The notes under the pieces: generated by a model
Told to the model about the DNA's origin: nothing
The model's database searches: none
Seen by the model: the letters and a program-made list of their open reading frames with translations, nothing else
Translations under genes and position numbers: made by a program
Assembly: GCA_963681505.1 (NCBI GenBank)
Contig: OY811981.1
Span: forward strand, 3,567,875 to 3,631,874
Source of the DNA: Eunapius fragilis
Lineage: Eukaryota > Porifera > Demospongiae > Spongillida > Spongillidae
Length of the DNA: 64,000 nt
Reading direction: 5' to 3'
Shown here: positions 9,118 through 55,518 of the stretch, piece by piece
Layout of the letters: each line of letters opens with the position of its first letter
Numbering within the stretch: position 1 is the stretch's first letter

Positions 9118-10562
9118 AAAGCGACTGGGGCTTCGTGCCAGACCCCATCCTGTCACGGGAGGGTGCAAGCCCACTCCTGGGCCCTAGCTCCGGTTTCCAC
9201 AATGATATCGTTATTCGACACCCCACCTTCCTGAAATCCCGCATCCGTCTCCGCCATCAGTAGCTTTTCAATAGAGGTGCATGTGATGTATTGTAGCCCA
9301 AAGTGTTGAAAATACGAGGTCGATAGTAACCTGGAAGCATTTTATATCAGACCTCGTATTGAAAACAAACAAAAAAAAAAAAAAAGCCTTTGGTCGCATA
9401 ATCTTCTCACTGCATTACATTATTGTTGCACAAGCATTATAGCATTTAAGATTTTATGGTATAGGGTGTACGTACATAACGTCTTCAGAATCTGTAAGCG
9501 ACCGATCACTTCTGAATCAGCGTTCCTTTACTCCGATCATCTCTGTACCACCCGTTGTCGACGCTCTTCTATTGTTGCCATGTACACGTATTGGGCGCCA
9601 GGTGGTGAATTTGACAATAAGAGCAATGCGTACAGCCGCTAGCGCGATGACCACAATTAACAGCACGAGGGTGTAGATGGCATTTCTTCCTCGGTTGTCT
9701 TGGGACCAATGTGCTCCCAGCACGGCAATTAACCACCAAATTACAACTGGATACACGCAGATGACGTAACGTGCGAAACGATCGAAGATGGTGTTCTCTA
9801 GAACGAAGTAAGTCACTATGGTAACGGTGAGGAGCACTAATGATACTGTGCCGCTATTGGTGGCGCTTAACCCCGCAAAATATTGCAGTACAGCCGAAAC
9901 GTCGACAAAGGACAAGGCTGTCGTCCACGTAGCATAGAATCCGATCCCGTTTACGGCAAATATCCACGTAAGCCAATAGTCCTCCTTCGACGGTTTCGTG
10001 ACATCAGACGAAAAGCAGCGGTGGAAATGAAAGCACAGTAGACCCAGCGACGCGTACAGGAAACAATTGAGAGCGACACGAAGCACCAGTGCACCTCCGA
10101 TGTAGTAATTTCCCCACAGGTATAGCCACGCAATGTTCGAGGCATTAGCCAGAGCATACAGCCAGTACACGCCGACGGCAATGGGCCTTGTAGATTTGGA
10201 TCGACAGGCGAACGACCACGCGTGGCACAGCCATAGCACCTGCATAAGGGTGATGATATTCCAGATGAAAAAGCCGTAACTGGCGGGCGTGATCAGTGTG
10301 TAGTACTGGTCCGATACAACTTTCGTGCTGTTCTTCAAGCCAGCTGGAGTGTTTGACGATAGGCTTAAAAGAGTAAGAGTGACTACTCCTACCGCGACCA
10401 GTGAGGTCACAGACAAAGAGACGATCTCTAACCAGAAGGGCATGACTCGCAGGGTTGCCGCGAGGGAAAGGTGAATTTTTATAGACGTAACCACAATATA
10501 TAAGCTCATAAAAAGCCATCAGTATAATTGATGGTGATTTTAATTTACTATTAGACTGGTCA
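9118..10562. repeat. Segmental duplication unit, left copy
   Basis: The TspO-related gene plus its flanks matches 14300-15712 in the same orientation. Shared flanks are the decayed TIR-element sequence downstream of the gene (9130-9250 against 14300-14395), the block around 9300-9340 against 14410-14450, and the ATTGATGGTGATTTTAATTTACT upstream block at its right edge, shown here only in part: GATTTTAATTTACTA. The duplication therefore covers about 1.4 kb. Confidence 0.75.
9517..10509 (-). CDS. TspO-related multi-pass membrane protein, copy A
   Basis: Single-exon frame of 330 residues. The first Met shared with copy B is residue 23 (ATG at 10443, MPFWLEIVSLSVTSLV) and is the likelier start, giving about 308 residues. 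Seven to eight hydrophobic segments are visible. The best landmark is LITPASYGFFIWNIITLMQV, followed by LWLCHAWSFACR. It resembles the TPA-(Y/W)-xF-xIW signature of an animal family distantly related to TspO/MBR tryptophan-rich sensory proteins (the PTHR33802 type). It also has NIAWLYLW, LLCFHFHRCF, a DRFARYVICVYPVVIWWLI helix, and a short basic tail. The function of this family is not established. It is a tandem paralogue of 14608-15573. Confidence 0.7.
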   Translation of the reverse strand: MSLYIVVTSIKIHLSLAATLRVMPFWLEIVSLSVTSLVAVGVVTLTLLSLSSNTPAGLKNSTKVVSDQYYTLITPASYGFFIWNIITLMQVLWLCHAWSFACRSKSTRPIAVGVYWLYALANASNIAWLYLWGNYYIGGALVLRVALNCFLYASLGLLCFHFHRCFSSDVTKPSKEDYWLTWIFAVNGIGFYATWTTALSFVDVSAVLQYFAGLSATNSGTVSLVLLTVTIVTYFVLENTIFDRFARYVICVYPVVIWWLIAVLGAHWSQDNRGRNAIYTLVLLIVVIALAAVRIALIVKFTTWRPIRVHGNNRRASTTGGTEMIGVKER

Positions 10563-14299: not shown

Positions 14300-15712
14300 A
14301 AAGCGACTGGGACTTCCCTCCAGACCCCTTCCAGTCACGGAAGGGTGCAAGCTCTCTCCTAACAAGGTTATGACCTCCTGGAATCCTGCATCCGCCCTAC
14401 ATTCAAGTGATGTATAGTACAAAGTGTTAAAAATATGAGGTCAATAGTTGGGAAGATGTATTGAAGCATTGTATATCGTATTGAATAAAATGCCACCCAC
14501 AAGCCCTGCTTTGTCACATGCCCTTCGATCTGCATTAACTAATCATGCACATTATAGCATTTATATAGGGTGTAAATGCTACAAGTACGTAATCTGTAAG
14601 CGCCCCGTCACTTCAGTACCGTTCCGTGATGTACCTCCGTCATTTCCGTACCATCTGTTTTCGACGTACTTCTATTGTTGCCATGTATAGGGCGCAAGGA
14701 GGTGAATTTGACAATAAGAGCAATGCGTACAGCCGCTAGCGCGATGACCACAATTAACAGCACGAGGGTGTAGATGGCATTTCTTCCTCGGTTCTTTTGG
14801 GACCAATGTGCTCCCAGCACGGCAATCAACCACCACATTACAACTGGATACACGCAGAGGACGTAACGTGCGAAACGATCGAAGATGGTGTTCTCTAGAA
14901 CGAAGTAAGTCGCTATGGTAACGGTGAGAACCACTAATGATACTGTGCCGCTATTGGTGGCGTTTAACCCCGCAAAATATTGCAGTACAGCCGAAACGTT
15001 GGCAAATGACAAGGCTGTCGTCCACGTAGCAAATAATCCGATCCCGTTCACGGCAAATATCCACGTAAGCCAATAGTCCTCCCTCGATGGTTTCGTGAAG
15101 TCAGACGAAAAGCAGCGGTGGAAGTGAAAGCACAGTAGACCCAGCGACGCGTACAGGAAAACATTGGTGGCGACAAGAAGCACCAGTGCGCCTCCGATGT
15201 AGTAATTTCCCCATAGGTATAACCACGCGACGCTCGAGGCATTGGCCGGAGCATACAGCCAGTACACGCTGACGGCAATGGTCCTTTTAGCTTTGGGTCG
15301 ACAGGCGAACGACCACGCGTAGCACAGCCACAGTACCTGCACAAGGATGATGACATTCCAGATGTAATGGCCGAAATCGGCTGGCGTGATCTGGGTGTAG
15401 TACTGGTCCGATACAACCTTTGTGTTGTTCTTGACGCCAGCTGATGTGCTAGGCGATAGGCTTAGAAGGATAAGAGTGACCACTCCTCCCACGACCAGCG
15501 AGGCCACAGACAAAGAGACGATCTCTAACCGGAAAGGCATGACTCGCAAGGTTGCCGCGCGAAAGGATAACATTTAACTGTCGTAACCGCAATATATCAC
15601 GATTATACAGCGTTTTATCGCGGTTAAATCACATCTTCTCTTAAAGCTAATAAAAAAGAATTCACATGCTACTAGTACAATTGATGATGATTTTAATTTA
15701 CTACTGGTCAAA
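14300..15712. repeat. Segmental duplication unit, right copy
   Basis: Partner of 9118-10562 in direct orientation, about 5.1 kb away. It carries the TspO-related copy B, the same decayed TIR-element flank downstream and the same AT-rich block upstream (about 15671-15712). Confidence 0.75.
14608..15573 (-). CDS. TspO-related multi-pass membrane protein, copy B
   Basis: Single-exon frame of 321 residues. The shared start Met (MPFRLEIVSLSVASLVV) is residue 12, ATG at 15540. It has the same hydrophobic layout as copy A, with QITPADFGHYIWNVIILVQV as the signature segment (Asp replaces Ser/Tyr near the TPA motif). Large blocks are almost base-identical to copy A (for example 14696-14800 against 9602-9705), while the signature loop and the C-terminus differ. 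The C-terminus reads TEMTEVHHGTVLK instead of TEMIGVKER. This points to a recent duplication or later conversion. The function is unknown, as for copy A. Confidence 0.7.
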   Translation of the reverse strand: MLSFRAATLRVMPFRLEIVSLSVASLVVGGVVTLILLSLSPSTSAGVKNNTKVVSDQYYTQITPADFGHYIWNVIILVQVLWLCYAWSFACRPKAKRTIAVSVYWLYAPANASSVAWLYLWGNYYIGGALVLLVATNVFLYASLGLLCFHFHRCFSSDFTKPSREDYWLTWIFAVNGIGLFATWTTALSFANVSAVLQYFAGLNATNSGTVSLVVLTVTIATYFVLENTIFDRFARYVLCVYPVVMWWLIAVLGAHWSQKNRGRNAIYTLVLLIVVIALAAVRIALIVKFTSLRPIHGNNRSTSKTDGTEMTEVHHGTVLK

Positions 15713-22082: not shown

Positions 22083-22686
22083 GGCCACTCCAAACTGGAC
22101 TTTAGTTTCCCGTCCACCCTTCCTCCAAAATATGATGCGGGCGGGCGGTGTATTTGTATTATTGTGAATATGATTAATTTCGGTGCCCAGACCTTACATC
22201 TCAGTACATATCATAAATAAGCACGTGCGCCTCTAGACGGAAAGTAGTGTCATTCCGGGAAGATCGGCGGCTATATTAAAAACTTATGCTGTTTTTAAGA
22301 TTGAATAAACATACAAAAAATATGCTTGCCGACTTTCCTAGGATGGCACTGCACCCGCGCGATACCTTTCTTCGCTTACAGTTTCATAGAAGGTGCTAAC
22401 AGTGAGTGTATCATCATGTGTTTCTAGCACTGTCCACGTTAGCAGAGTCTTCTTGCAACAAACATCAAAAACATTGACGCTTATTAAAACCATCGTCGCT
22501 ATTATATTAGCCTAGCCAAAATGGTGCAGGATTATTAATAAGCAGACCATTTATTGAAGTTGACATTTATTAATTATTCAAATAATACAAAAGTATGTCT
22601 TTAATAAGCAATAATACAAGTTTTAGGCGGTCGGCTATTTAGCAAGCGGGCGGGGACGGGAAACTAGAGTCCAGTTTGGAGTGGCC
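22083..22686. mobile_element. PIF/Harbinger-like MITE (TAA target duplication) at the 3' end of ADPRH copy B
   Basis: The ends GGCCACTCCAAACTGGACT and AGTCCAGTTTGGAGTGGCC are perfect inverted repeats, extending with few mismatches to about 33 bp (through TAGTTTCCCGTCC). TAA flanks both sides (22080-22082 and 22687-22689), the 3-bp T-A-A/T-T-A duplication of Harbinger elements. The 604-bp interior is non-coding. On the minus strand the element's first base G completes the TAG stop of the neighbouring gene. Confidence 0.85.
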
Positions 22687-23747
22687 TAAACAGCCTTGTA
22701 AAGTCCCTTGCCCAGTGCAATAAGTCGATCTCTGTACTCCAGGTTCTTGTAGTTCACCTCCGGCACGCCCTCGAACCCATACATGGCTCCCCAGCAGGAC
22801 CCTGCTATGATCCCCGTACTGTCGTTATCCCCTCCGTGGAGCACGCCTCGCAAACACAGTTCTTCCCACGAAGCCCCCGCGCCAAGGAGGGCATCGTAGG
22901 CTATCATCGGAGCGTCATGACCGCTGGCTCCCCCACAGCCTCTATAACTTAGTGACTTGTAAAATGTATCCCTCTCTTGTGGTCCGTAGTTTTCAGGAAA
23001 CGTTGGTGTGGACTTACCATCAGTCAGATTCCTTTCTTGGAGGTAATCGGCCCATCGCTTCTCAAAGTAGCTCCAGTCTTCTTTGTTCTGTTGGACATCC
23101 TTTCCCGTTTTCTCTACGTACTTCCAGGCCACTGGCAAAGTATCCATGAGGCCCCTCCCCCACGAGTTAATTGGTTTCTTCTGAATAGCGTAAGACACAA
23201 ACAGTGCTGTAGCAACAGACCCAAGGTAGCCCGTTGGGCAGTTGTGTGTCATTCGACCAGACTCCACCGCCACGGCCACGAGATCTTCCAACTGCTCGGG
23301 TCGGTAGAAACGAAGTCCGATAGGAGCGGATCTCATGGCCGCACCACACCCGCCTCCACTTAGATTATAGGGAGTCCGGTATCCCCCGCGCTCTTTGGGT
23401 CGTAGCAAGCGTACCGCGTTTAAAGTGGTAGGCCCCGGTGCTCGCCCCGCCATGTCCCTCGATCCCACGATGTACTGCTGGGCTATGGCGCAAAAGAGCG
23501 TCTCCATGTCCTTCCACTCAGAGACCAGGGCCTCGGCAGTGGCTATGTGCAGGACGGTATCATCGCTCACCATGAACTCTGCGCGCGTTAGGTTCAACGC
23601 TGACACTCCCCCACATTGGTTCACCTCCGAGTGTATGGTGACCCCCGATCTGCAGAACTCCCACTTACCGTTTTTATACCCCATGGCGTCGCCAACAGCT
23701 CCTAATACCATTGCAGCAACGAAGTTATTCTCCAACGAAGCATCCAT
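22686..23747 (-). CDS. ADPRH: ADP-ribosylarginine hydrolase (ARH1 type), copy B
   Basis: Single-exon 353-residue paralogue of copy A. All catalytic motifs are kept: VSDDTVLH with Asp61/Asp62, GGGCGAAMRSAPIGLRF, SGHDAPMIAYD and HGGDNDST. Differences cluster at the N-terminus, around residues 110-130 (NAVRLLRPKERGGYRTPYNL) and around 235-275 (LTDGKSTPTFPENYGPQERD). The remaining stretches are nearly identical in DNA. It ends GLYKAV where copy A ends GLYEATM. The TAG stop is made of TA from a target duplication plus G from the adjoining MITE, so the present C-terminus is set by a transposon insertion. The predicted role is cytosolic removal of ADP-ribose from arginine. Confidence 0.95.
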   Translation of the reverse strand: MDASLENNFVAAMVLGAVGDAMGYKNGKWEFCRSGVTIHSEVNQCGGVSALNLTRAEFMVSDDTVLHIATAEALVSEWKDMETLFCAIAQQYIVGSRDMAGRAPGPTTLNAVRLLRPKERGGYRTPYNLSGGGCGAAMRSAPIGLRFYRPEQLEDLVAVAVESGRMTHNCPTGYLGSVATALFVSYAIQKKPINSWGRGLMDTLPVAWKYVEKTGKDVQQNKEDWSYFEKRWADYLQERNLTDGKSTPTFPENYGPQERDTFYKSLSYRGCGGASGHDAPMIAYDALLGAGASWEELCLRGVLHGGDNDSTGIIAGSCWGAMYGFEGVPEVNYKNLEYRDRLIALGKGLYKAV

Positions 23748-24784
23748 AATAGAGCCAAAAGCGCGTTGGAAAATTAGGTAGTTTCGTAACCAGACGTCAC
23801 AGACGGTCTGGGTACGAGACTAGAAATTAGCCCCAAAAATTTTGAAATGTCCCAAACCGGACCCTTAGGAATGCGCTATACACTTTGCACACTGTCACGA
23901 GTACAATAAATATATATAAGCCATTCTATGGTTATGAAACACCTCTGACCTTCATAAGGCGTATAAAATCACGCACAAAAGGGTGTCGGCTTTGTATGTG
24001 GCTTGAAGTGAGGTAATTTGTGGCCCTATCAGTATGTACGTTCTGAAGACTATAGTGGCTCTCGTGCACAATGAGATGGGCTATATCGGTACGGCCATCT
24101 TGATGGTTGCTTGTTTCTACTGTCGCCGAATTTTCTGAAGTTGTGTTCAAACGCTTTGAAAATCGCCATTTTTGGTGAGTCAGCCGACTATCTGTCTGCA
24201 TGCACATATACTTATTCGCTGCGATAAAAGTAAGGGTCGTATAATATTATATATGGAAAGGTAAAAACGTTATGTTTATATATCATGTATCATGTTTTCT
24301 CTTCTCTGAAGGGTTTAGAGCTGCATGTCGACTGCCTCCTGCATGGCATGAAGGCACTTCTATAAATTATGTGCACATGCAGGGCACAAGGCCTAGGGTT
24401 TAAAGACCTATTTGAGTGAGGACTAGTTCTATGGTGGGGGGATGGCAACTACAACTTGTGGGGCTATACTGATCAAGTGTTCCTAGACACAGCGATGATT
24501 TACTTGTCAGTAACTTCTGTTTATGCCAAGCCATGCAAGTAGTGTAAACTTGGCATACTGGACTCAGCCCCCCATGCATTCTCCTAGGAGGCCAAAACCA
24601 ACGCATGTCTTGTGGGCTGCAACATTCATTATCCAGAAGTCCTTTGTCTCGTCCAGTTTTTAGCTATACCTCACTAGCAGGAATGACAGTGTCATGCCAG
24701 GTATAAACCGTCCTGTCCTGCATTGGGTTAAAATTATTGTATAAGGTTTATGTCTTGACCTCCTAACCATTCATTCTCTTCCAG
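23748..24784. other. Upstream region of ADPRH copy B and intergenic sequence
   Basis: No gene supported. Short frames have no recognisable domain. Confidence 0.4.
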
Positions 24785-27452: not shown

Positions 27453-28215
27453 GCTTGTCATATCATTTTACAATGGCTCAGGATGCCACTCCAACCTCCC
27501 ATTATGGAAATGTCTCTCAGAATGCCTCCCGCTCTCAGCAGGCGAGGTGTGCGATCGCCATGTCATTAGTAAAACATTAGTAAAACATGACGACGCATGC
27601 GGTATGCTTGAAACAATGGTATGAAGAAATAGTGCTATGCAAGTTTGAGCACAATGAAAACTGCCTGAAAAAGTCAGCCCCCAATTAAACTGATTAAAAG
27701 TCTTATAATAAGTGAGGACTTTAGTTGGTCAGTCCATGTGCATGGATATAGACTAAATGTAGTGCTTTGGGCCATGTACCTGAGAAGATTAAGACAAAAG
27801 CCACATTAAAAAAGCTTCGTTTTAACAAAGCTTCTTTTAACAATGGATTTGTCAATCAAAGTCTGAAAGGGACAAACACACAGCTGTGTCCAGTCACACA
27901 AACTGTAGGTATTTAAAAGGTCCCCAACACAAGGAACACATGAGTAGATTGAAATTCTAACACTGATAATGATTCAGAATACATGTATTAACATTAACAG
28001 AATACATGTATTAACCAGCTTCTAATCTCCTACACATATGTGGTCACTACATATCTAGTAGCATCTGCAGCAAGTCATTATGTCCAAAAGGTTCCTTCTG
28101 TGTGTCCAATACCTGTTTGGAATAAGCGTCACTCCTATACTTTAACCTCAATTTGGTTGTCATGACATCATTGCCAAGCTTAATATAATGTCATTCATAC
28201 ATATGTACCTTATTT

Positions 28216-31200
28216 CTGGATTGTTCATAATAGTATCCGTGGTGACAAGGAATAAGTAGGCATGTTAAGGTGCAATGGGAAATGCAGCATCGTTGATACT
28301 TACACACTGCATTGTTCACAATAGTATCCATGGTGACAAGGAATAAGTAGGCATGTTAAGGTGCAATGGGAAATGCAACATCATTGATACTTACACACTG
28401 ACAATAGTATCCATGGTGACAGGAATAAGTAGGCATGTTAAGATGCAATGGGAAATGTAACACATTGATACTTACATCCTGCATTGTTCATAATAGTATC
28501 CATGGTGACAAGGAATCATGTTAAGTTGCAATGGGAAATGCAACATCATTGATACTTACATCCTGCATTGTTCATAATTGTATCCAAGGTGACAAGCAAT
28601 AGGTAGGCGTGATAAGGTGCAATGGGAAATGCTACATCATTGATACTTACAAACTGCTATGTTCATAGTATCCATGGTGCCAAGGAATAAGTAAACATGT
28701 TAAGGTGAGAAAAGTAGCACCATTGATACTTACCTTCTACATTGTTCATAATAGTATCCATCGTGACAAGGAATAAGTAGGCATGTTAAGGTGCAATAGG
28801 AAATGGAACATTATTGTTGCTTACATCCTGCATTGTTCACAATAGCATCCATGGTGACAAACATGTTAAGGTGCAATAGGAAATGCAACATCATTGAAAC
28901 TTACAGGCTGCATTGTTCATTATAGTATCCATGGTGACAAGCAATAAGTAGACATGATAAGGTGCAATGGGAAATGCAACATCATTGATACTTACAGGCT
29001 GTATTGGATCAATGTTGACAAGGAAAATTAGTCGGCATGTTAAGGTGCAATGAGAAATGCAACATCATTGATACTTACACACTGCATTTGTTCATAATAG
29101 TATCCATGGTGACAAGCAATAGGTAGGCATGTTAAGGTGCAATGGGAAATGCAACATCATTGATACTTACAAACTGCATTGTTCATAGTATGCATGGTGA
29201 TAAGGAATAAGTAGGCATTTTAAGGTGCAATGGGAAATGGAACATCATTGATACTTACCTTCTGCATTGTTCATAATAGTATCCATAGTGACAAGGAATA
29301 AGCAGGCATGTTAAGGTGCAATGGGAAATGCAACATCATTGATACTTACATACTGCATTGTTCATAATAGTATCCATGGTGACAAGCAATAGGTAGGCAT
29401 GTTAAGGTGAAATGGGAAATGCAACATCATTGATACTTACAAACTGCATTGTTCATAGTATCCATGGGGACAAGGAATAAGTAGACATGTTAAGGTGCAA
29501 TGGGTAATGCAACATCATTGATGCTTACCTTCTGCATTGTTCATGATAGTATCCATGGTGACAACAAAACAGTAGGCATTTTAAGGTGCAATGGGAAATG
29601 GAACACTATTGATGCTTACATCCTGCATTGTTCACAATAGTATCCATGGTGACAAACATGTTAAAATGCAATAGGAAATGCAACTTCATTGAAACTTACA
29701 AACTGCATTGTTCATTATAATGACAAGCAATAAGTAGACATGTTAAGGTACAATAGGAAATGCAACATCATTGATACTTACATTCTTCATTGTTCATAAT
29801 AGTATCCATGGTGACAAGGAATAAGTAGGCATGTTAAGGTGCAATGGGAAATGCAACATCATTGATACTTACAATCTACATTGTTCACAATAGTATCCAT
29901 GGTGACAAGGAAAATTAGTAGGCATGTTAAGGTGCAATGGGAAATGCAACATCATTGATACTTACAACCTGCATTGTTCATAATAGTATCCATGGTGACA
30001 AGGAATAAGTAGGTATGTTCAGGTGCAATGGGAATTGCAACATCATTGATACTTACCTTCTGCATTGTTCATAATAGTATCCATGGTGACAAGGAATAAT
30101 TAGGCATCTTAAGGTGCAATGGGAAATGCAACATCATTGATACTTACAGACTACATTGTTCATAATAGTATCCATGGTGACAGGGAATAAATAAACATGT
30201 TAAGATGCAATGGGAAATGCAACATCATTGATACTTACAGGCTGCATTGTTCATAATAGTATCCATGGTGACAACAAAACAGTAGGCATTTTAAGGTGCA
30301 ATAGGAAATGGAACATTATTGATGCTTACATCCTGCATTGTTCACAATAGTATCCATGGTGACAAACATGTTAAGGTGCAATGGAAATGCAACTTCATTG
30401 AAACTTACAGGCTGCATTGTTCATGGTATGCATGGTGACAAGGAATAACATGTTAAGGTACAATGGAAAATGCAACATCATTGATACTTACCTTCTGCAT
30501 TGTTCATAATAATATCCATGGTGACAAGGAATGTTAAGGTGCAATAGGAAATGGAACATTATTGATGCTTACATCCTGCATTGTTCACAATAGTATCCAT
30601 GGTGACAAATATGTTAAGGTGCAATAGGAAATGCAACATCATTGAAACTTACAGGCTGCATTGTTCATTATAGTATCCATGGTGACAAGCAATAAGTAGA
30701 CATGATAAGGTGCAATGGGAAATGCAACACCATTGATACTTACAGGCTGTATTGTTCATATTAGTATCCATGTTGACAAGGAAAATAAGTAGGCATGCTA
30801 AGGTGCATTGAGAAATGCAGCATCATTGATACTTACACACTGCATTGTTCATAATAGTGTCCATGGTGACAAGCAATAGGTAGGCATGTTAAGGTGCAAT
30901 GGGAAATGCAAAATCATTAATACTTACAAACTGCATTGTTCATAGTATCCATGGTGACAAGGAATAAGTAGGCATTCTAATTTAAGGTGCAATGGGTAAT
31001 GCAACATCATTGATACTTACAACCTGCATTGTTCATAATAGTATCCATGGTGACAAGGAATAAGTAGGCATTTTAAGGTGCAATGGGAAATGCAACATTA
31101 TTGATACTTACAAACTGCATTGTTCATAATAGTATCCACGGTGACAAGCAATAGGTAGGCATGTTAAGGTGCAATGGGAAATGCAACATCATTAATACTT

Positions 31201-32877
31201 ACATTCTGCATTGTTCATAGTATCCATGGTGACAAGGAATAAGTAGACATGTTAAGGTGCAATGGGTAATGCAACATCATTGCTACTTACCTTCTGCATT
31301 GTTCATAATAGTATCCATGGTGACAAGGAATAAGTAGACATGTTAAGGTGCAATGGGTAATGCAACATCATTGATACTTACAGGCTGCATTGTTCATAAT
31401 AGTATCCATGGTGACAACAAAACAGTAGGCATTTTAAGGTGCAATGGGAAATGGAACATTATTGATGCTTACATCCTGCATTGTTCACAATAGTATCCAT
31501 GGTGACAAACATGTTAAAAGCAATAGGAAATGCAACTTCATTGAAACTTACAAACTGCATTGTTCATTATAGTGATAAGCAATAAGCAGACATGATAAGG
31601 TACAATGGGAAATGCAACATCATTGATACTTACAGACTGCATTGTTCATAATAGTATCCATGGTGACAAGGAATAAGTAGACATGTTAAGATGCAATGGG
31701 AAATGCAACATCATTGATACTTACAGGCTGCATTGTTCATGATAGTATCCATGGTGACAACAAAACAGTAGGCATTTTAAGGTGCAATAGGAAATGGAAC
31801 ACTATTGATGCTTACATCCTGCATTGTTCACAATAGTATCCATGGTGACAAACATGTTAAAAGCAATAGGCAATGCAACTTCATTGAAACTTACCAACTG
31901 CATTGTTCATTATAGTGACAAGCAATAAAATAGACATGATAAGGTGCAATGGGAAATGCAACATCATTGATACTTACATTCTGCATTGTTCATAATAGTA
32001 TCCATGGTGACAAGGAATAAGTAGGCATGTTAAGGTGCAATGGGAAATGCAACATTATTGATACTTACAATCTGCATTGTTCACAATAGTATCCATGGTG
32101 ACAAGGAAAATTAGTAGGCATGTTAAGGTGCAATGGGAAATGCAACATCATTGATACTTACAACCTGCATTGTTCATAATAGTATCCATGGTGACAAGGA
32201 ATAAGTAGGTATGTTAAGGTGCAATGGGAATTGCAACATCATTGATACTTACCTTCTGCATTGTTCATAATAGTATCCATGGTGACAAGGAATAATTAGG
32301 CATCATAAGGTGCAATGGGAAATGCAACATCATTGATACTTACAGACTGCATTGTTCATAATAGTATCCATGGTGACAAGGAATAAGTAGACTTGTTAAG
32401 ATGCAATGGGAAATGCAACATCATTAATACTTACAGGCTGCATTGTTCATAATATTATCCATGGTGACAACAAACAGTAGGCATTTTAAGGTGCAATAGG
32501 AAATGGAACATTATTAATGCTTACATCCTGCATTGTTCACAATAGTATCCATGGTGACAAACATGTTAAAATGCAATAGGAAATGCAACTTCATTGAAAC
32601 TTACAAACTGCATTGTTCATTTGAGTATCCATTGTGACAAGGAATAAGTAGGCATGTTAAGGTGCAATGGGAAATGCAACATCATTTATACTTACAGGCT
32701 GCATTGTTCATAATAGTATCCATGGTGACAAGGAATAAGTAGGCATGTTAAGGTGCAATGGGAAATGCAACATCATTGATACTTACAATCTGCATTGTTC
32801 ACATCATGGTGACAAGGAAAATTAGTTGGCATGTTAAGGTGCAATGGGAAATGCAACATCATTGATACATTGTTCAT
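28216..32877 (-). repeat. 91-bp tandem array, about 52 units, each intron-like on the minus strand
   Basis: The unit is 88 nt plus a 3-nt variable segment. Read on the minus strand it starts GTAAGTATC. It then has TTAAC at positions 36-40, a pyrimidine-rich stretch at about 44-60 (CCTACTTATTCCTTGTC), no AG after the branch-like site until the final ATGCAG, and then three variable bases before the next GTAAGTATC. I tallied 52 junctions and 11 different triplets (minus strand): CCT 10, GAT 9, TTT 8, AAG 7, TGT 4, AAT 3, ATT 3, GTT 3, TCT 3, TAT 1, TTG 1. Unit bodies fall into subtypes (long, short, ACAACAAAACAGT-bearing, AAAATTAGT-bearing) that recur in blocks of about 700 bp. No frame of any length is open through the array. 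Confidence 0.95.
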
Positions 32878-32941
32878 AAATATATATAACTATCATATTT
32901 AATTGCAATTGGAAAGGTCACGTGATTGGATAAACACTAAC

Positions 32942-34093
32942 CGTTGCACTCAAACTTCCAGCACTCTTCCCCCTCAAATAATTGGTTGTCATATCTGTAG
33001 AATATAGAGGATTTGAAATTGACATAGCGCACGTGTATCACATCGTGTGTCATTATCGATGATGCCATCGATGTGGGGAATGTTTCGGAGCTACATAGTT
33101 GAACTTTAACTGTGTGATGATTAAGAATCAGAAGAGTAGGTGGCGATTCTACCTTCAAAAATTAGCTGGGGGGAAATAGTGTGTTTTATATTTATTCCAT
33201 TTTTATGTTCAAATTAGGTTTTTAGATAGAAAGGTCCACAGAAGCGTCGAATCATTTAGAAATCATTGCGTGATTTAACCGAAAATCACACAAGAATCAC
33301 ACCCTTCTATTGATTTTCGTGTGATTTTCTGTTGCAATGATTTCTAAATGATTCGACGCTTTTTTTCCCTGTGATCTCTTAGCTACGGGATGATTCTATT
33401 CGTTAATTTTTATGTCATCTGTTGCGGGGATAGAGTTGATGCTTGTTTTCCCGCTTGATTCGTGCTGATGATATAATCACCGCCCGGGACGCGATTTGAT
33501 TGAGTGGCGCGAATCGAGTGCTAAAACGACCAAGTAGTTTGTACAACCAGAGATACTATACTTTCTCTGGTACAGCTGTATAAATGTAACGGATGACATA
33601 AAATTTAACCAATAGAACAATCCCCCTCTCTACCTAAAACCCGTATTTGAAAACTCCAAGTATGGGGGGTTTGAACCCTGTAGGGTATCGGACGTTGCAG
33701 TGTAGGCACGGAGCTAGCGCAAGACTCCAAAATATATTTCGTGACGATAGACAAATGGTGTAGTATGAAGTGCTGAAAATAGGACGTTGATAGATTCTAG
33801 CATAATCTTTCGGAAGGTATAACGATCAGACGGAAAGCATTTTAATAAAAATTGCATAGGTAATACGCCTTAATTCTCTCCCCCAGTCCTTACCCTTAAG
33901 GATGTAGTCGCGGTTAGTCAATGAGTCGATTTTTTCCTCGACCTCATCGCTCATCTCAACAGTATCCTTCACCTGTGAGGGGTGCTGTTATATGACGTCA
34001 CTACATAGCTAGCTCCCAAACCTTGGAGTGCTGGGGACGGGCATCAGAGAACGAGGCCAGCAGGGTCACAAGAAGAGCCAGTTCCTTCAGCAT
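32942..34093 (-). CDS. Candidate secreted-protein gene, first three exons (reads into the 91-bp array)
   Basis: Exon 1 is 34093-34022 (ATG to AAG, 72 nt): MLKELALLVTLLASFSDA then RPQHSK, a clear signal peptide. Exon 2 is 33972-33894, after an intron of 49 nt ending CCCCTCACAG. It gives VKDTVEMSDEVEEKIDSL, then TNRDYILK, and ends in phase 1 before GTAAGG. Exon 3 is 33109-32942, after CACACAG: VQLCSSETFPTS, later FYRYDNQLFEGEECWKFECN, ending in phase 1 before GTTAGTG. The exon phases agree (0, 1, 1) and exon 3 has three Cys. The next sequence downstream on this strand is the intron-like array; after it a short phase-1 tail (28211 downwards, IRYICMND..., TGA) is possible. I do not recognise the family. 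The exon calls rest on splice motifs and frame only. Confidence 0.4.
33237..33378. repeat. Inverted repeat (fold-back MITE-like) inside the candidate intron
   Basis: AAGCGTCGAATCATTTAGAA at 33243 onward is repeated inverted around 33339-33361, with an inner pair around AAAATCACAC. It would fold into a hairpin with arms of about 60 bp. Non-coding. Confidence 0.7.
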
Positions 34094-39162: not shown

Positions 39163-40072
39163 AAGGTGAGGGGCGTAGACTGCATGTAAGGTGAGGGTTT
39201 AGACTGCATGAGGTCACTAAGGTGAGGGTGTAGTCTGCATGATGTCGCTAAGGTGAGGGTGTAGACTGCATGAGGTCACTAAGGTGAGGGCGTAGTCTGC
39301 ATGAGGTTGCTAAGGTGAGGGATGTAGTCTGCATGAGGCCACTAAGGTGAGGGTATAGACTGCATGAGGTTACTAAGGTGAGGGGTGTAGTCTGCATGAG
39401 GTCACTAAGGTGAGGGGTGTAGACTGCATGAGGTTGCATATAAGGTGAGGGCGTAGTCTGCATGAGGTTGCTAAGGTGAGGGATGTAGTCTGCATGAGGC
39501 CACTAAGGTGAGGGGCGTAGACTGCATGAGATCACTAAGATATGGAGTAGTCTGCATGAGGTCACTAAGGTGAGGGTGTAGTCTGCATGAGGTCACTAAG
39601 GTGAGGGGTGTAGACTGCATGAGGTCACTAAGGTGAGGGGCGTAGACTGCATGAGATCACTAAGATATGGAGTAGTCTGCATGAGGTCGCTAAGGTGAGG
39701 GTGTAGTCTGCATGAGGTTACTAAGGTGAGGGGTGTAGTCTGCATGAGGTCACTAAGGTGAGGGGTGTAGTCTGCATGAGGTCGCTAAGGTGAGGGTGTA
39801 GACTGCATGAGGTCACTAAGGTGAGGGTGTAGTCTGCATGAGGTTACTAAGGTGAGGGTATAGTCTGCATGAGGTCACTAAGGTGAGCGGCATAGACTGC
39901 ATGAGGTTGCATGTAAGGTGAGGGGTGAAGACTGCATGAGGTGCATGTAAGGTGAGGGGTGACTGCATGAGGTCATTAAGATATGGTGTAGTCTGCATGA
40001 GGTCACTAAGGTGAGGGTGTAGACTGCATGAGGTCGCTAAGGTGAGGGTGTAGTCTGCATGAGGTTGCTGTC
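39163..40072. repeat. 31-bp minisatellite, about 29 copies
   Basis: The unit contains CTAAGGTGAGGGTGTAGTCT and GCATGAGGTCA. Copies vary at GTGTAG/GCGTAG and TCACT/TCGCT/TTGCT. Each unit includes AAGGTGAGG, a good donor consensus on the plus strand, but with no acceptor partner in the unit. Confidence 0.9.
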
Positions 40073-40951: not shown

Positions 40952-41855
40952 TCACGCCTGGTACTGAATCAAATAAGCAGGGTATGCCTTCTCGTTGTCA
41001 TAAGCCATGAACACCTGGGAACCGTTAGTCGTTCCTGTCACCATGTCGTACTTCATTTGACCAAACTGCAGCTGACTGCTCAATACTGCAGAGGGCTTGG
41101 GAGGGGGCATTCGAAGGGTGGGGGTTGAAGCACAGTTGTAGCTGTCTCCTGTCAGGACCTTCACCAGGAACATCTCCCTGTACCCTGTTGCAGCATTGAC
41201 ATGGGCATAGTTGTGAGAATAGCTGGCGTTCACGGCAAAGTAGTTGGCCACTCCCCACATCCCCTGGGCACTGTACCTCATGTCAAAGCCATCCTCACCC
41301 TCATAGATCGGTTTGGGGTCATTATTACGTGTGCCGTGGAACAGCTCCTTCTCATTCACCACTCCACTGTTCTTAAGGTGAAGTCTCTTTCTGTGTTGAA
41401 CATATCTTTCCCAGAGCCACGTGTTCTGAATACGCTGAACTGAAGTGATTCTAGCTTGGGGCATGGTTTGTTGATACTTCTGGACAACCTGATTCCATTC
41501 CGGGGTTCCTTGAGGGAGACCGAAGAGTTCTGTAGTCTTGGACTGTGGCTTTTGCCATTCAGGAGGTAAATCTGCATCTTTGGCTGATGCCTGGTAATTA
41601 ATTATTTCTTCCTATACTAGACTGTAGACCTTCTCAACTGAATTGATTGCACCCTCTAGTTTTAACACCTTTCCACGTTTCCCCCCAGGCTTTGGTAACT
41701 GTGCTTCGACAGAACAGATTACACTATGTCTCTGAGCTATCTCTTCCAGCTGCCTTTCCAGAGTAGCACATTCACCAAATGGTATGGGAACAGTTTTAGT
41801 GACAAACTCTCTAATTTTTTGAGGATTCTGTCCTTGGCAACTGCCAAACTCTTTT
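40952..41855 (-). CDS. PARP catalytic domain (PARP14-like mono-ART), probably damaged gene
   Basis: The frame from about 41611 to TGA at 40954-40952 gives a full PARP fold: LPPEWQ, IQNTWLWERYVQHRKRL, LFHGTR (NAD-binding His), GVANYFAVNASYSHNY (catalytic Tyr), GYREMFLVKVLTG, and QVFMAYDNEKAYPAYLIQY. The place of the polymerase Glu is Val, so the activity would be mono-ADP-ribosylation or none. Upstream, the same frame runs on from about 41855 (REFVTKTVPIPFGECATLER, LEEIAQRHSVICSVEAQL, KLEGAINSVEKVYSLV). It is interrupted by a TAG at 41614-41612, which is either an in-frame stop or a weak ...CTAGTATAG acceptor. A hAT fragment on the other strand abuts at about 41855. No complete N-terminus was found. 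Confidence 0.75.
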
Positions 41856-50000: not shown

Positions 50001-53000
50001 AAATCGAAGTCCCCACTCCTTGGATCCAGAGGCAACTACCTCTGTGCATGCAGTGCTGGAATTAACAAAGACACAGTTCATAGAACCTGAAGCAGCATGA
50101 TTTGATCAAACGAGTGAAATGTATAAAAATTATATCTGAAGGTGTGTAAATACATGTAATTGCACATGTACTTATGGTTAAACATAATGTATGTACATTC
50201 ATGCTGACAGTCTTATAGGCCTTACATATGTATTTTATATCTTAGTCTCGGGTCTTACTTCTGACAATGAAAGGCTTTTTGTCCACAAATCACCCACTTT
50301 ACATGAACAGCATGCAACAGTAACAAAACCAAATGAAATGAATACCACACACCACCCAATGCATCACAAATAAACTAAGCAACGCCTTCACAATGTACCA
50401 TCCCTCCCTAGAGCACCAATGGTACAGGCTAATCCATCTCTGATAAATGATCAGATCACAAACCATTAGACAGATGTGGACAGATGGGGTCACTAACAGC
50501 AGTATTAAACTCACTCAGCAGTCTTCACAAGGAGTTCAGTAAGTCTTTTCCTGGGACGAGGTATGTCTGGACCAAAAGAAAAAAACAAAACAGGATTCAT
50601 CCATGTACAGGTATAACAACTAGATATCCTGACATCTATGCAAAAAAACTGGTAATGATATATGGAGAATGCAACAAAAATCCTATATGCATGTGTTAGG
50701 ATATCACTACCTGTTTGATACATGGTGACTGGATGAAAGGAAGTTTCATTGCATCCCATACAAGCAATGATAGCTTTATGGATATTGTAACTTCCTCATG
50801 ATCAGTTTCTAACAGCTCATGTGCGTAAAACAACTTCTTCCACGCATACTGCAGGTGCATGTGTACACGCATACTTGAATTTGTACATGTACGTATATGG
50901 GCATTACATGCACACCATGTACATATATGGACATTACATGCACAGATATGCTTAATCCCATACTACGACTTTGGAGTAGGTATGGGGCAGCTAGAGGGTG
51001 TTGTGTGTGTGTGCATGTGCATTGTGTGTGTTTATGTGTGTCTGTGTGTGTTCGCACATGCGTGTGCACTGGCCTAGAGAGACATGAGCAGAGGTATGTG
51101 TAGGGGTATGTGTAGAGGGGTATGTGTAGGGGTATGTGTAGGGGTATATGTAGGGGTATGTGTAGAGGTATGTGTAGGGGTATGTGTAGGGGTATGTGTA
51201 GGGGTATGTGTAGGGGTATGTGTAGGGGTGTGTGTAGGGGTGTGTGTAGGGGTATGTGTAGGGGTATGTGTAGGGGTATGTGTAGAGGTATGTGTAGGGG
51301 TATGTGTAGGGGTGTGTGTAGGGGTGTGTGTAGGGGTGTGTGTAGGGGTATGTGTAGGGGTATGTGTAGGGGTATGTGTAGAGGTATGTGTAGGGGTATG
51401 TGTAGGGGTATGTGTAGGGGTGTGTGTAGGGTATGTGTAGGGGTATGTGTAGAGGGGTATGTGTAGGGGTATGTGTAGGGGTATGTGTAAGGGTATGTGC
51501 AGGGGTATGTGTAAGGGTATGTGTAGGGGTATGTGTAGGGGTATGTGTAGGGGTATGTGTAGGGGTATGTGTAGGGGGTATGTGTAGGGGGTATGTGTAG
51601 GGGGTATGTGTAGGGGTATGTGTAGGGGTATGTGTAGGGGTATGTGTAGGGGTATGTGTAGGGGTATGTGTAGGGGTATGTGTAGGGTGTGTGTAGGGAT
51701 ATGTGTAGGGGTATGTGTAGGGGTATATGTAGAGGCATGCGTAGGGTATGTGTAGGGGTATGTGTAGGGGTATGTGTAGGGGTATGTGTAGGGGTATGTG
51801 TAGGGGTATGTGTAGGGTATGTGTAGGGGTATGTGTAGGGGTATGTGTAGGGGTATGTGTAGGGGTATGTGTAGGGGTATGTGTAGGGGTGTGTGTAGGG
51901 GTATGTGTAGGGGTATGTGTAGAGGTATGTGTACCCCCCCTCGTTGGTTGGTTCCCCAGTGCCCCCACCTGCTGGTAAGTTCCTGACACCCACAAAGTCC
52001 TTGGGATCCAGCACCACTCTACACTCAGGCAGCTTGGTCATCTCTCTGAGCTCTTTGATGGTGAATGCGGCTTGGAGAGGGCCCCTCCTCCCCACAAGCC
52101 ACACCCTCCTTATACTGCTCCTTCGAAGGGTTTCAAGGGCATGCTCACATATGTCAGTCATCTGTAATGGAATATTTATAGCATGAAGGATCATGTGACC
52201 TCCTCAACATACACACGACCATCCTCAACATATACGTGACCCCCAACTAGTTGATCACATATTGTAGAACAAGTCCAGAAGTTCACATCTCTAGCCCATC
52301 ATCTACCCCTCAATAATCTCCCATCCTCATCACTTTGGGAAGCTCTTATTAATGCCCTGTAATAACCACATCAGGACATCATTTCCTCGGTGGCTAAGAA
52401 TAAGTCGTACTCCAGATACACATGGGCACACACACACACACAGACCTCCAAGATGTTAGCAGGAGTTAGCAGCATACGGGCCACATCAATCGCCACATTC
52501 CCCTGACCAATGATCACTGCAGTGTCTCCTGAGAGGTCCGGGTAGAGCTGGGGAGGAGGAGGGGTAGCAGAGTACGTGGCTCAATGCTGTCCTAGTACGT
52601 ACATTATGTATGAAGGCACTACCACATGAATCAAGGCACACTCCCACACACACACTCCCACATGAACCAAGGCACAGATACCCACAAGAACTAAAATCTC
52701 CACATATGTTCACATGTAGACACAATACAAGCACCACATACAACATATGTGCACATGTAGACACAATACAAGCACCACATACAACATATGTGCACATGTA
52801 GACACAATACAAGCACCACATACAACATATGTTCACACGTAGACACAATACAAGCACCACATACAACATATGTGCACATGTAGACACAATACAAGCACCA
52901 CATACAACATATGTGCACATGTAGACACAATACAAGCACCACATACAACATATGTGCACATGTAGACACAATACAAGCACCACATACAACATATGTTCAC

Positions 53001-55518
53001 ACGTAGACACAATACAAGCACCACATACAACATATGTGCACATGTAGACACAATACAAGCACCACATACAACATATGTGCACATGTAGACACAATACAAG
53101 CACCACATACAACATATGTGCACATGTAGACACAATACAAGCACCACATACAGCATATGTGCACATGTAGACACAATACAAGCACCACATACAACATATG
53201 TACACATGTAGACACATACAAGCACCACATAATGCATAGTTTCTCCCTATCTGTTGGCACACCTTGCTTTAACCCCTTAAAGTATTCCTGCTTGCTTTAA
53301 CCTAGATAGGCTCACATGTGCATGTTCAGGGAGTCCATTGTACCATCCAACAAAGGCCCTGGCAGAGAGCACTCCATCAAGGTCCTGGCATGGCAAAGCA
53401 TGTAGCCATCAAATGTGTGACATCATTACTACATGACATCATTACTATATGATATCATTACTATATGACATCATTAATATGTGCCATTATTACTAAATGA
53501 CAACTTTACAATATCATTAATAACTTTACATAACATCATTGCTATATGACAGTGGCTATGGTGGGTGAGAGTAACCAAGGTAACCAATTACCTCACCAGG
53601 CACCCCAAGGAGTGTGTCATCATCAGCACCATACGCCTATGAAAGTGAAAGTGGGGATGGGAGGGAGGTATGAAGGAGGGAGGGAGGAAGGAGGGAGGGA
53701 GGGAGGGAGGGAAGGAGGGAGTGAGGGAGTGAGGAAGACACAAGAGGTGGACAGGCACATGATAAGGCACAAGAGTAAGAAACTGGTGCAGCTGTTCAAA
53801 TTACAAATTTTTTATAACCAAATAGTACATGTATGCATTATCTAATACCAATGTAAACCTGACAAAAGGTTACTTCATCTTTGACAAACTCATAGGAAAT
53901 TGTACACTGAGTAGCTGCAATAGCAATGGTATCTGAACTGCATAACAATATTAGCACAAATATAATATCAAATTTTATATGGCTAAGTTATATTCAATAA
54001 GAATACTTTCCTCCCTACATTAACATGTACATGTAGCTAAAAGATTTCAGACAGCTTGGGATTATTTCACTGAACAACATCCAAACACGTACATAAATGT
54101 GTACTGATGGTCTGAAACAGTTACAACAGTTTCAGCATCCTAAAACTGGTGCTTAACAAGCATTTGTTGCTATTGCATACCTTCAGATCCAGCAATAATC
54201 AGTTGATTCAGTTCCTTACAATTACATAACCCTTATAAGACAACAAAGTCAATATCTCAAGTTCAACTAAGTATACATTTAAAATTTAATAATCAAAATT
54301 AGATCTTCAGCGTCTATATATCAACATGCCATCCCTGATTAAAATTAATTTAACACGTTACCAGGCATCTATTAGAATATACTGATACATGAGAGATAAC
54401 CATGGCAACCATATACTGATACATGAGAGGTAACCATGCCAACCATAAACATCCAATATGAAAGTACAACTGCTGCCCACATTGGTAAGCACCAAGAACC
54501 ATTGTCATGGCAACAACTACAAAGCTCCATATTAAAATAATAGATTCTGTAAATGGTCCTAATAGATTCAGGACCATTTACAGCACATCACTCCACATCA
54601 CTCCACATCACACCACATCACACCACGCATAGCACACCACACACCCCACCACACACAGAACAGTCATCAATAGCTGAGCAACAAATGAACATAGCTATAG
54701 CTTTGCTATGGCAACACAAAAGGAGGGGTACCCCCTGTGCAAGAGGAGAACATACAACAGAAGCTTAGCTTACAAGCACCAAGGCATGGTAGAAGGGCCT
54801 GAGCTGAGCCAATGTGACGTCCTTACCCAGACATACATTACCAATAAACCTGCACCTGTCTGATTCAGCGAGGGCGGTAAACTGGTTGATCACGTTCTGC
54901 AAGCAGCAAAAGATAACACAATGTTCAATCGTCGCCAAAATTTCATGACCACATGTTGTGTCACATGATCCTAGTCGTATGCACACTGTGTCACATGACT
55001 AAGTCATAAGCACAGAGTGTCACATGACCGTAGTTGTATGCACACTGCGTCACATGACCCTTATCTAGTGGCAAAGTGACCCTGTACGTGCAGGAGAAAA
55101 GGAACTCCAATGTTGCCCAAGAGACATGGCAGCCATGTCATGTACAAGTATTGCCACCTGGTTAAATGCAGCCCCTCACGTGCTGAGGCTATACTAGATT
55201 ACTAACCGTGACATTGGCAGATTACTAACCTTGACATCCGGGTGGTCAGGTGCCACTCCATACCTCACCAGCCCAAAGGGAATTGGGAGACGGTCAAATA
55301 TGTCCACATGGATGTTTGGGTTGCGCTGAAGAACGAGTGAAAATGAGGGCGTGGTCAGTGGAACAAACGCCTACAGCCAAATTATTGGCAGCTCAGTATT
55401 GCCATATCAATATGCAATAAGTGCAGAGCGTTTAATTGCTTGGAACTATTAGTCGCTTGATAAGGGGTTACCGAATTTCTTAACGCGAGCCTCGTGGTGT
55501 CAGCAGCAACCCCCCCCC

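Follow-up and report, generated by a model that had tools for sequence, protein, structure and literature searches.

Arrays of putative one-codon exons predicted to encode secreted peptides in the sponge Eunapius fragilis

Array layout and predicted gene structure in the window

We analyzed a 64,000-nt stretch of the genome of the demosponge Eunapius fragilis (hereafter the window; contig OY811981.1, positions 3,567,875 to 3,631,874), which carries a tandem array of intron-like units whose intervening triplets are candidate exons of a single codon. On the minus strand, from 32789 to 28304, we found 52 AG-NNN-GTAAG junctions, whose triplets are of 11 types and include no stop. Acceptors were CAG at 48 of these junctions, TAG at three and AAG at one, and donors matched GTAAGTATC exactly in 32/52, the GTAAG start common to all 52 being the search condition. 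Units were spaced 79–93 nt apart (91 nt in 26 of 51 steps). An earlier note on this DNA, made from the sequence alone, had described about 52 minus-strand units with 3-nt gaps and 11 stop-free triplet types, and our counts agree; its wording that every 91-bp unit begins GTAAGTATC described a frequent spacing and donor and was too strong in the word "every". Related arrays were sought across a 218.9-Mb assembly of 24 contigs, in which the window lies on C11.

The 3-nt gap is no product of the search design, as it also emerged from tests in which it was not assumed. When exon length was left free between 1 and 60 nt, all exons in the kept splice chains (186/186) were 3 nt long. In a model-free count, the nearest upstream AG lay exactly 3 nt from GTAAG for 343 of 391 motifs inside arrays, compared with 27 of the 124 that lie beyond the array limits at the same loci, some of those 27 being outlying members; an AG directly abutting GTAAG, the zero-gap arrangement of a recursive splice site, occurred at only 18 of the 391. 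The array introns are mostly 76–92 nt in length, near-identical copies of one another, and carry the signals of spliceosomal GT..AG introns: a donor, a branch-like motif at a fixed place (299/324 introns), and an AG-free zone, the final 42 bases of the 324 introns containing 16 AGs where composition predicts 483, which bears out the AG-exclusion zone reported earlier. Donors read GTAAGTAT at 325 of 444 triplet junctions from 22 loci. We take eight bases of GTAAGTAT to match U1, a pairing that leaves the codon free; donor strength would thus come from the intron side, because the exon side of each donor is a free codon. These counts use a simple AG-NNN-GTRAG (or GTAGG) rule, since a strict position weight matrix parser split chains at diverged acceptors. 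Some exons look 6 or 9 nt long in three older arrays (L061, L051 and L059), for example GCTGTACAT (Ala-Val-His) in L061, and these may represent either fused codons or an older state. At a C20 locus (L062), one array intron contains an insertion of ~1 kb with inverted arms.

A gene model could be assembled around the window array, with all features on the minus strand. Exon 1 (34022..34093) encodes the signal-peptide-like MLKELALLVTLLASFSDARPQHSK, judged by eye, and ends in phase 0 before GTTTGG. Exon 2 (33894..33972, 79 nt) would add an acidic pro-region, VKDTVEMSDEVEEKIDSLTNRDYILK, plus one base and so ends in phase 1, a position and phase shared by most other loci read, except for C22, where it ends in phase 0. 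Exon 3 (32942..32994), encoding (D)MTTNYLRGKSAGSLSAT, is 53 nt long (2 mod 3) and brings back phase 0; across loci, phase-restoring exons of 2 mod 3 were read at differing lengths (53, 65, 47, 50, 29 and 23 nt). Its frame was open in 8/8 loci compared, with a mean pairwise amino-acid identity of 0.62 vs 0.55 and 0.48 for the other frames. The 152-nt intron leading to the first codon exon (32790..32941) contains, at 32868/32867, a fused unit that lacks the 11 nt of CAG-NNN-GTAAG, a loss of one residue with the frame kept. The 52 predicted one-codon exons and their 51 introns (28304..32789) then spell IPFDPSKVINLDPSFDPKNFVFCPPDKPDPSKVINFDKFYKFCPPDKFDDCC, and the last array intron (28216..28303, 88 nt, acceptor AACAATCCAG) is followed by the coding part of a terminal exon, AAA TAA (Lys-stop, 28210..28215), of which both acceptor and stop were read. 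Two C21 genes have AAA TGA at this place, and a stop lay within four codons of the terminal exon start in 10/11 loci. The joined product would be MLKELALLVTLLASFSDARPQHSK-VKDTVEMSDEVEEKIDSLTNRDYILK-DMTTNYLRGKSAGSLSAT-IPFDPSKVINLDPSFDPKNFVFCPPDKPDPSKVINFDKFYKFCPPDKFDDCC-K-stop, from a predicted mRNA open for 121 codons, with one stop in frame 0 and 8 and 23 stops in the other two frames.

Two other ways of entering the array were rejected. Joining exon 2 directly to codon 1, which reads the array in phase 1, ran into a TGA at codon 4 for the window, and into stops for several other genes (checked by hand), a conflict that exon 3 resolves. The earlier note had placed the exon before the array at 33109–32942 (frame A), using another acceptor and another frame. 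Frame A is open in the window, and a hand count between the window and C21 gave it more silent changes than frame B, but among the eight loci compared it has stops at C1:22382; the frame-keeping exon is therefore 32994–32942. This second frame stays open across exon 3 at window positions 33109–32935 (..YDNQLFEGEECWKFECNG, followed by a TAG that lies within the next donor) and in 7/8 loci over 33 nt, being broken at C1:22382, and a second use of it by intron retention is possible. Within intron 2 (33360–33237), a long imperfect inverted repeat with arms of ~50 nt around AATAGAAGGGT resembles, by eye, a miniature inverted-repeat transposable element.

Gene family and triplet content across the genome

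The earlier note had suggested searching the same genome for similar arrays, and these were found: CAG-NNN-GTAAGTATC gave 739 matches vs 17 for the reversed pattern, and the array unit itself matched many other places, on at least C3, C6, C11, C12, C19 and C21 among the matches listed. The signal exon had 53 copies at two or fewer mismatches (reversed-pattern control, 0). For 25 of 30 arrays listed, a copy lay on the same strand no more than 8 kb upstream, and for none on the wrong strand. In a blind test run in the opposite direction, five signal exons that lacked a listed array (on C13, C22, C20, C18 and C7) were followed downstream, and codon arrays were present at all five. The hydrophobic N-terminal leader, a putative signal peptide by eye, is kept across copies. 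Worn codon-exon units at C1:24190380-24190510 (L046), downstream of the C1:24.19-Mb gene, are likely a decaying array; the sole CAG-TGA-GTAAGTATC of the genome lies in a pair of them.

We assessed whether the triplets behave as codons across 22 loci, leaving out the near-identical duplicate loci C1:22409 and C1:22528, clusters of fewer than five hits, and three triplets that are exon-2 ends (C13, C3:10763 and C20). Stops occurred in 0/444 triplets vs 17.8 expected from positional composition (P = 1.3e-8), compared with 11 and 46 of 422 in the two shifted frames, so that only one phase is open over these loci. All 739 exact matches held a single stop triplet, TGA, and no TAG, against 27.6 stops expected. 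The lack of stops, which the earlier note had regarded as statistically unremarkable, is so for 11 types in one array but not at the scale of the genome. Part of this avoidance could reflect splicing, because TAG, like CAG, would introduce an additional acceptor, and TAA an additional donor. However, there is no splice-site reason for avoiding TGA, which was expected 15.4 times and seen once, whereas TGT, TGC and TGG made up 41, 12 and 6 of the 444. The triplet CAG was never found (0/739), and Gln was encoded by CAA 11 times and by CAG not at all among the 444, as expected if CAG would serve as a rival acceptor. Triplets ended in T in 62% of cases and in A in 25%, vs 19% and 21% for third bases in the two ADP-ribosylglycohydrolase reading frames of the window, implying that the last base ahead of the donor experiences a pressure of its own.

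Stops avoided in one phase only, exons of 3 nt at free length, pairing with the signal exon, the return of phase in exon 3 and the terminal stops all support reading the triplets as codons. We therefore propose, with a probability of nearly 0.9, that the array forms the main coding part of a gene for a secreted-peptide precursor, in which each residue of the mature region would occupy its own 3-nt exon. The cassette exons adding residues to a protein that were suggested earlier were right in kind but understated, as a whole peptide would be encoded codon by codon. Several observations weigh against this proposal. A looser splice parsing gave 3 nt for 274/283 exons, the other nine being three of 9 nt, two of 6 nt and four that were not multiples of three. 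For five of the 30 listed arrays, including C1:16.77 Mb, a signal exon was not found, and the C13 terminal exon has no stop over 25 codons in the predicted phase. The window array taken alone is also stop-free when read +1-shifted, so that its phase rests on the other shift, which has stops, on exon 3 and on the other loci. The acceptors of exon 3 and of the terminal exons were picked by eye with the frame in mind. A search of the genome for an intronless or retro-copied version returned only exon-by-exon matches, and six deduced proteins had no match in Pfam.

Variation among units and rival explanations

The triplet proved to be an outlier in variability beyond its unit subtype. Across 76 C11 and C21 introns, each 88 nt long, triplet entropies were 1.96, 1.94 and 1.29 bits, whereas intron positions reached at most 0.81 (mean 0.20). 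Unit pairs were then compared for C11 and C21 only, using the 130 of 148 units that have both introns. Among 139 pairs in which both flanking introns were ≥97% identical, 1.8% of intron sites differed compared with 42% of triplet sites; in the 68 of these pairs that joined different loci, triplets differed at 59% of sites, close to the value for all pairs (62%). At 34 pairs with three or fewer intron substitutions and no gap, the triplet was the same in 22, one base off in one, two off in one and all three off in 10. Because point mutation alone would yield mostly single changes, exchange of whole codon cassettes between units is likely from these comparisons, although strong diversifying selection on the triplets may be an alternative. 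The codon was tied more tightly to its downstream than to its upstream intron (same triplet in 20% vs 5% of pairs). One comparison runs counter to rapid change: two recent duplicate pairs on C1, differing at 0.4% and 0.9% of bases, keep their codons except for one alignment gap in one codon. Supporting a coding role, the C1:22 paralogues align residue by residue with silent changes, for example CTT vs TTA (both Leu) in ..LLGK.

If the triplets are codons, the spliceosome would remove the introns singly through intron definition, probably in order. With only 3 nt between them, a donor and an acceptor could hardly be occupied together, so each ligation would add one codon and expose the next donor. 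A residue could then be gained by duplication of one codon-plus-intron unit and lost by deletion of a unit or loss of a splice site, and recombination between near-identical introns might shuffle residues, the frame never being shifted. A likely use would be a fast-changing repertoire of defense, venom-like or signaling peptides.

We weighed three other explanations. The earlier note had offered a recursive-splicing ratchet, in which each unit serves as one stage in the excision of a single long intron and no triplet enters the mRNA. Such a scheme suits the strong donor close after each AG, the AG exclusion, the branch-like motifs at a fixed place and the ordinary exons on both sides of the array. 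However, the triplets avoid stops in one phase only, and that phase is set by exon 3; they spell family-specific peptides (Cys-rich, Pro/Arg-rich, ..LLGK), and the total intron would span only ~4.7 kb. Recursive splice sites, as described in excerpts of a 2026 review (PMC13149111), have the donor at once after the acceptor, with zero bases between AG and GT, and remove very long introns stepwise, whereas the sponge arrays have three codon-like bases at this position. As the coding features sit in the triplets, we consider a ratchet improbable. A non-coding satellite, or an intron-like transposon (introner) inserted repeatedly in tandem with target-site duplications of 3 nt, would explain the near-identical tandem units, the dispersal of several arrays and the block copying in the window array. 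We regard this origin as less probable still, given that successive triplets mostly differ and so are not target-site duplications, that the signal exon accompanies 25/30 arrays on the same strand and 5/5 in the blind test, and that stops are depleted.

The third explanation extends the proposed coding gene rather than replacing it. Its one-codon exons may be skippable cassettes, any subset of which could be joined to yield many peptides. Every subset of 3-nt exons would keep the frame, and donor and acceptor sequences differ among units; the uniformly strong donors (GTAAGTAT, as counted above) favor full inclusion, and we hold this extension only tentatively. The broader idea that the single codon is a movable unit, its cassettes duplicated, deleted and re-assorted in DNA and its exons included or skipped in RNA to give combinatorial secreted peptides, seems to us similarly speculative.

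Deduced peptides, known systems and other genomic features

The peptides deduced from the arrays fall into compositionally distinct groups. Those at C1:24.19, C3, C7, C13 and C22 are Cys-rich with a CCC or CCCC end; others are Pro/Arg-rich (LRRRPRPRPDPLRRLLPPLLPPIRG-K, and EQKRPYYRPYYRRPYRPYRPRP, read without its end), and one at C21:1468 is Gly-rich. Genes of the C1:22 and C5 loci would encode short Q...LLGK or ..GGK peptides whose precursors end in Gly plus a basic residue. A stop followed at C1:22382, C1:22401 and C5:10386, and none was found after the same ..LLGK/..GGK motif at C1:22436 and C1:22528. These Gly-Lys-stop ends, alike in the C1:22 and C5 deduced precursors, recall those of amidated peptides. 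The Cu2_monoox_C domain gave 12 partial matches above cut-off in the genome (best E = 1.6e-5), among which PHM is not separable from related enzymes. A PDB search with one deduced peptide gave no meaningful match (best E = 0.74), and any role as a toxin, antimicrobial or hormone is conjecture drawn from composition.

Several known gene families offer partial parallels. Schistosome micro-exon genes (MEGs) encode secreted, fast-evolving proteins from many tiny exons, mostly multiples of three; excerpts of their description give exons of 6–81 bp in the text (3–81 in the abstract), most of 15 bp, with 10–20 exons per gene and introns of 0.1–5 kb (PMC10526429). By comparison with what these excerpts report, the sponge internal exons are nearly all one codon, up to 52 in a row, and are separated by near-identical introns of ~80–90 nt. 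Aphid bicycle genes, as excerpted, encode secreted effectors whose numerous small internal exons share one phase, mostly phase 2, and a relative has >100 microexons for a protein of ~2000 residues (PMC9168663), but these exons are on average far longer than a codon, whereas those of the sponge are 3 nt and in phase 0. Single 3-nt microexons, such as that of Drosophila homothorax in the excerpted account, prove that one codon can be an exon (PMC7392893); such microexons are isolated there, in contrast to the consecutive codon exons that would form the protein body here. Sponges also make barrettides, stryphnines, halichondamide and proline-rich macrocyclic peptides, which are secreted or disulfide-rich and proline-rich (PMC8713285, PMC13418204, PMC11382151). 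In the excerpts of these papers, no one-codon exon structure is described for sponge ribosomal peptides, and introns of <100 to 400 nt separate barrettide transcript isoforms.

A search of openly licensed literature in PubMed Central returned no one-codon-exon array, and 3-nt exons only as isolated microexons. Because of this, and because neither MEGs nor bicycle genes are described with one codon per exon in the excerpts cited, the predicted architecture appears to be new, with MEGs as its closest working analogue when compared by description. If splicing is confirmed, the spliceosome would faithfully join dozens of consecutive 3-nt exons, a test of the smallest workable exon and of exon vs intron definition. 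Whole codons could be gained, lost or swapped without frameshift, providing a route for fast peptide evolution. The peptide repertoires of sponges, and perhaps of other animals, would then be partly invisible to gene prediction and short-read spliced alignment, since neither looks for one-codon exons. The amidation-like ends of some deduced peptides would also bear on peptide signaling in animals that lack neurons; according to the excerpted text of a 2022 paper, no neuropeptide had been found in sponges before that work (PMC9004410).

The remainder of the window contains further reading frames and repeats. Two similar ADP-ribosylglycohydrolase reading frames lie on the minus strand at 1300–2394 and 22686–23819 (the Pfam match was run for the first only), and a PARP catalytic domain lies at 40952–41611. 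Two similar membrane-protein-like reading frames are found at 9517–10518 and 14608–15573 on the minus strand, the former without a match in Pfam. Long minisatellites occupy 51093–51933 (12-bp unit), 52702–53231 (41 bp) and 39187–40065 (31 bp). Elsewhere in the assembly, contig C24 carries cox1, with TGA read as Trp, AGA as Arg and ATA as Ile, together with four tRNA genes within 4.3 kb. Among animal mitochondria, such a code combined with many tRNAs indicates a sponge, here very probably a demosponge; cnidarian mitochondria keep one or two tRNAs. Nuclear fragments resembling cox1 at C9:9.63-9.68 Mb and on other contigs are probably mitochondrial insertions.

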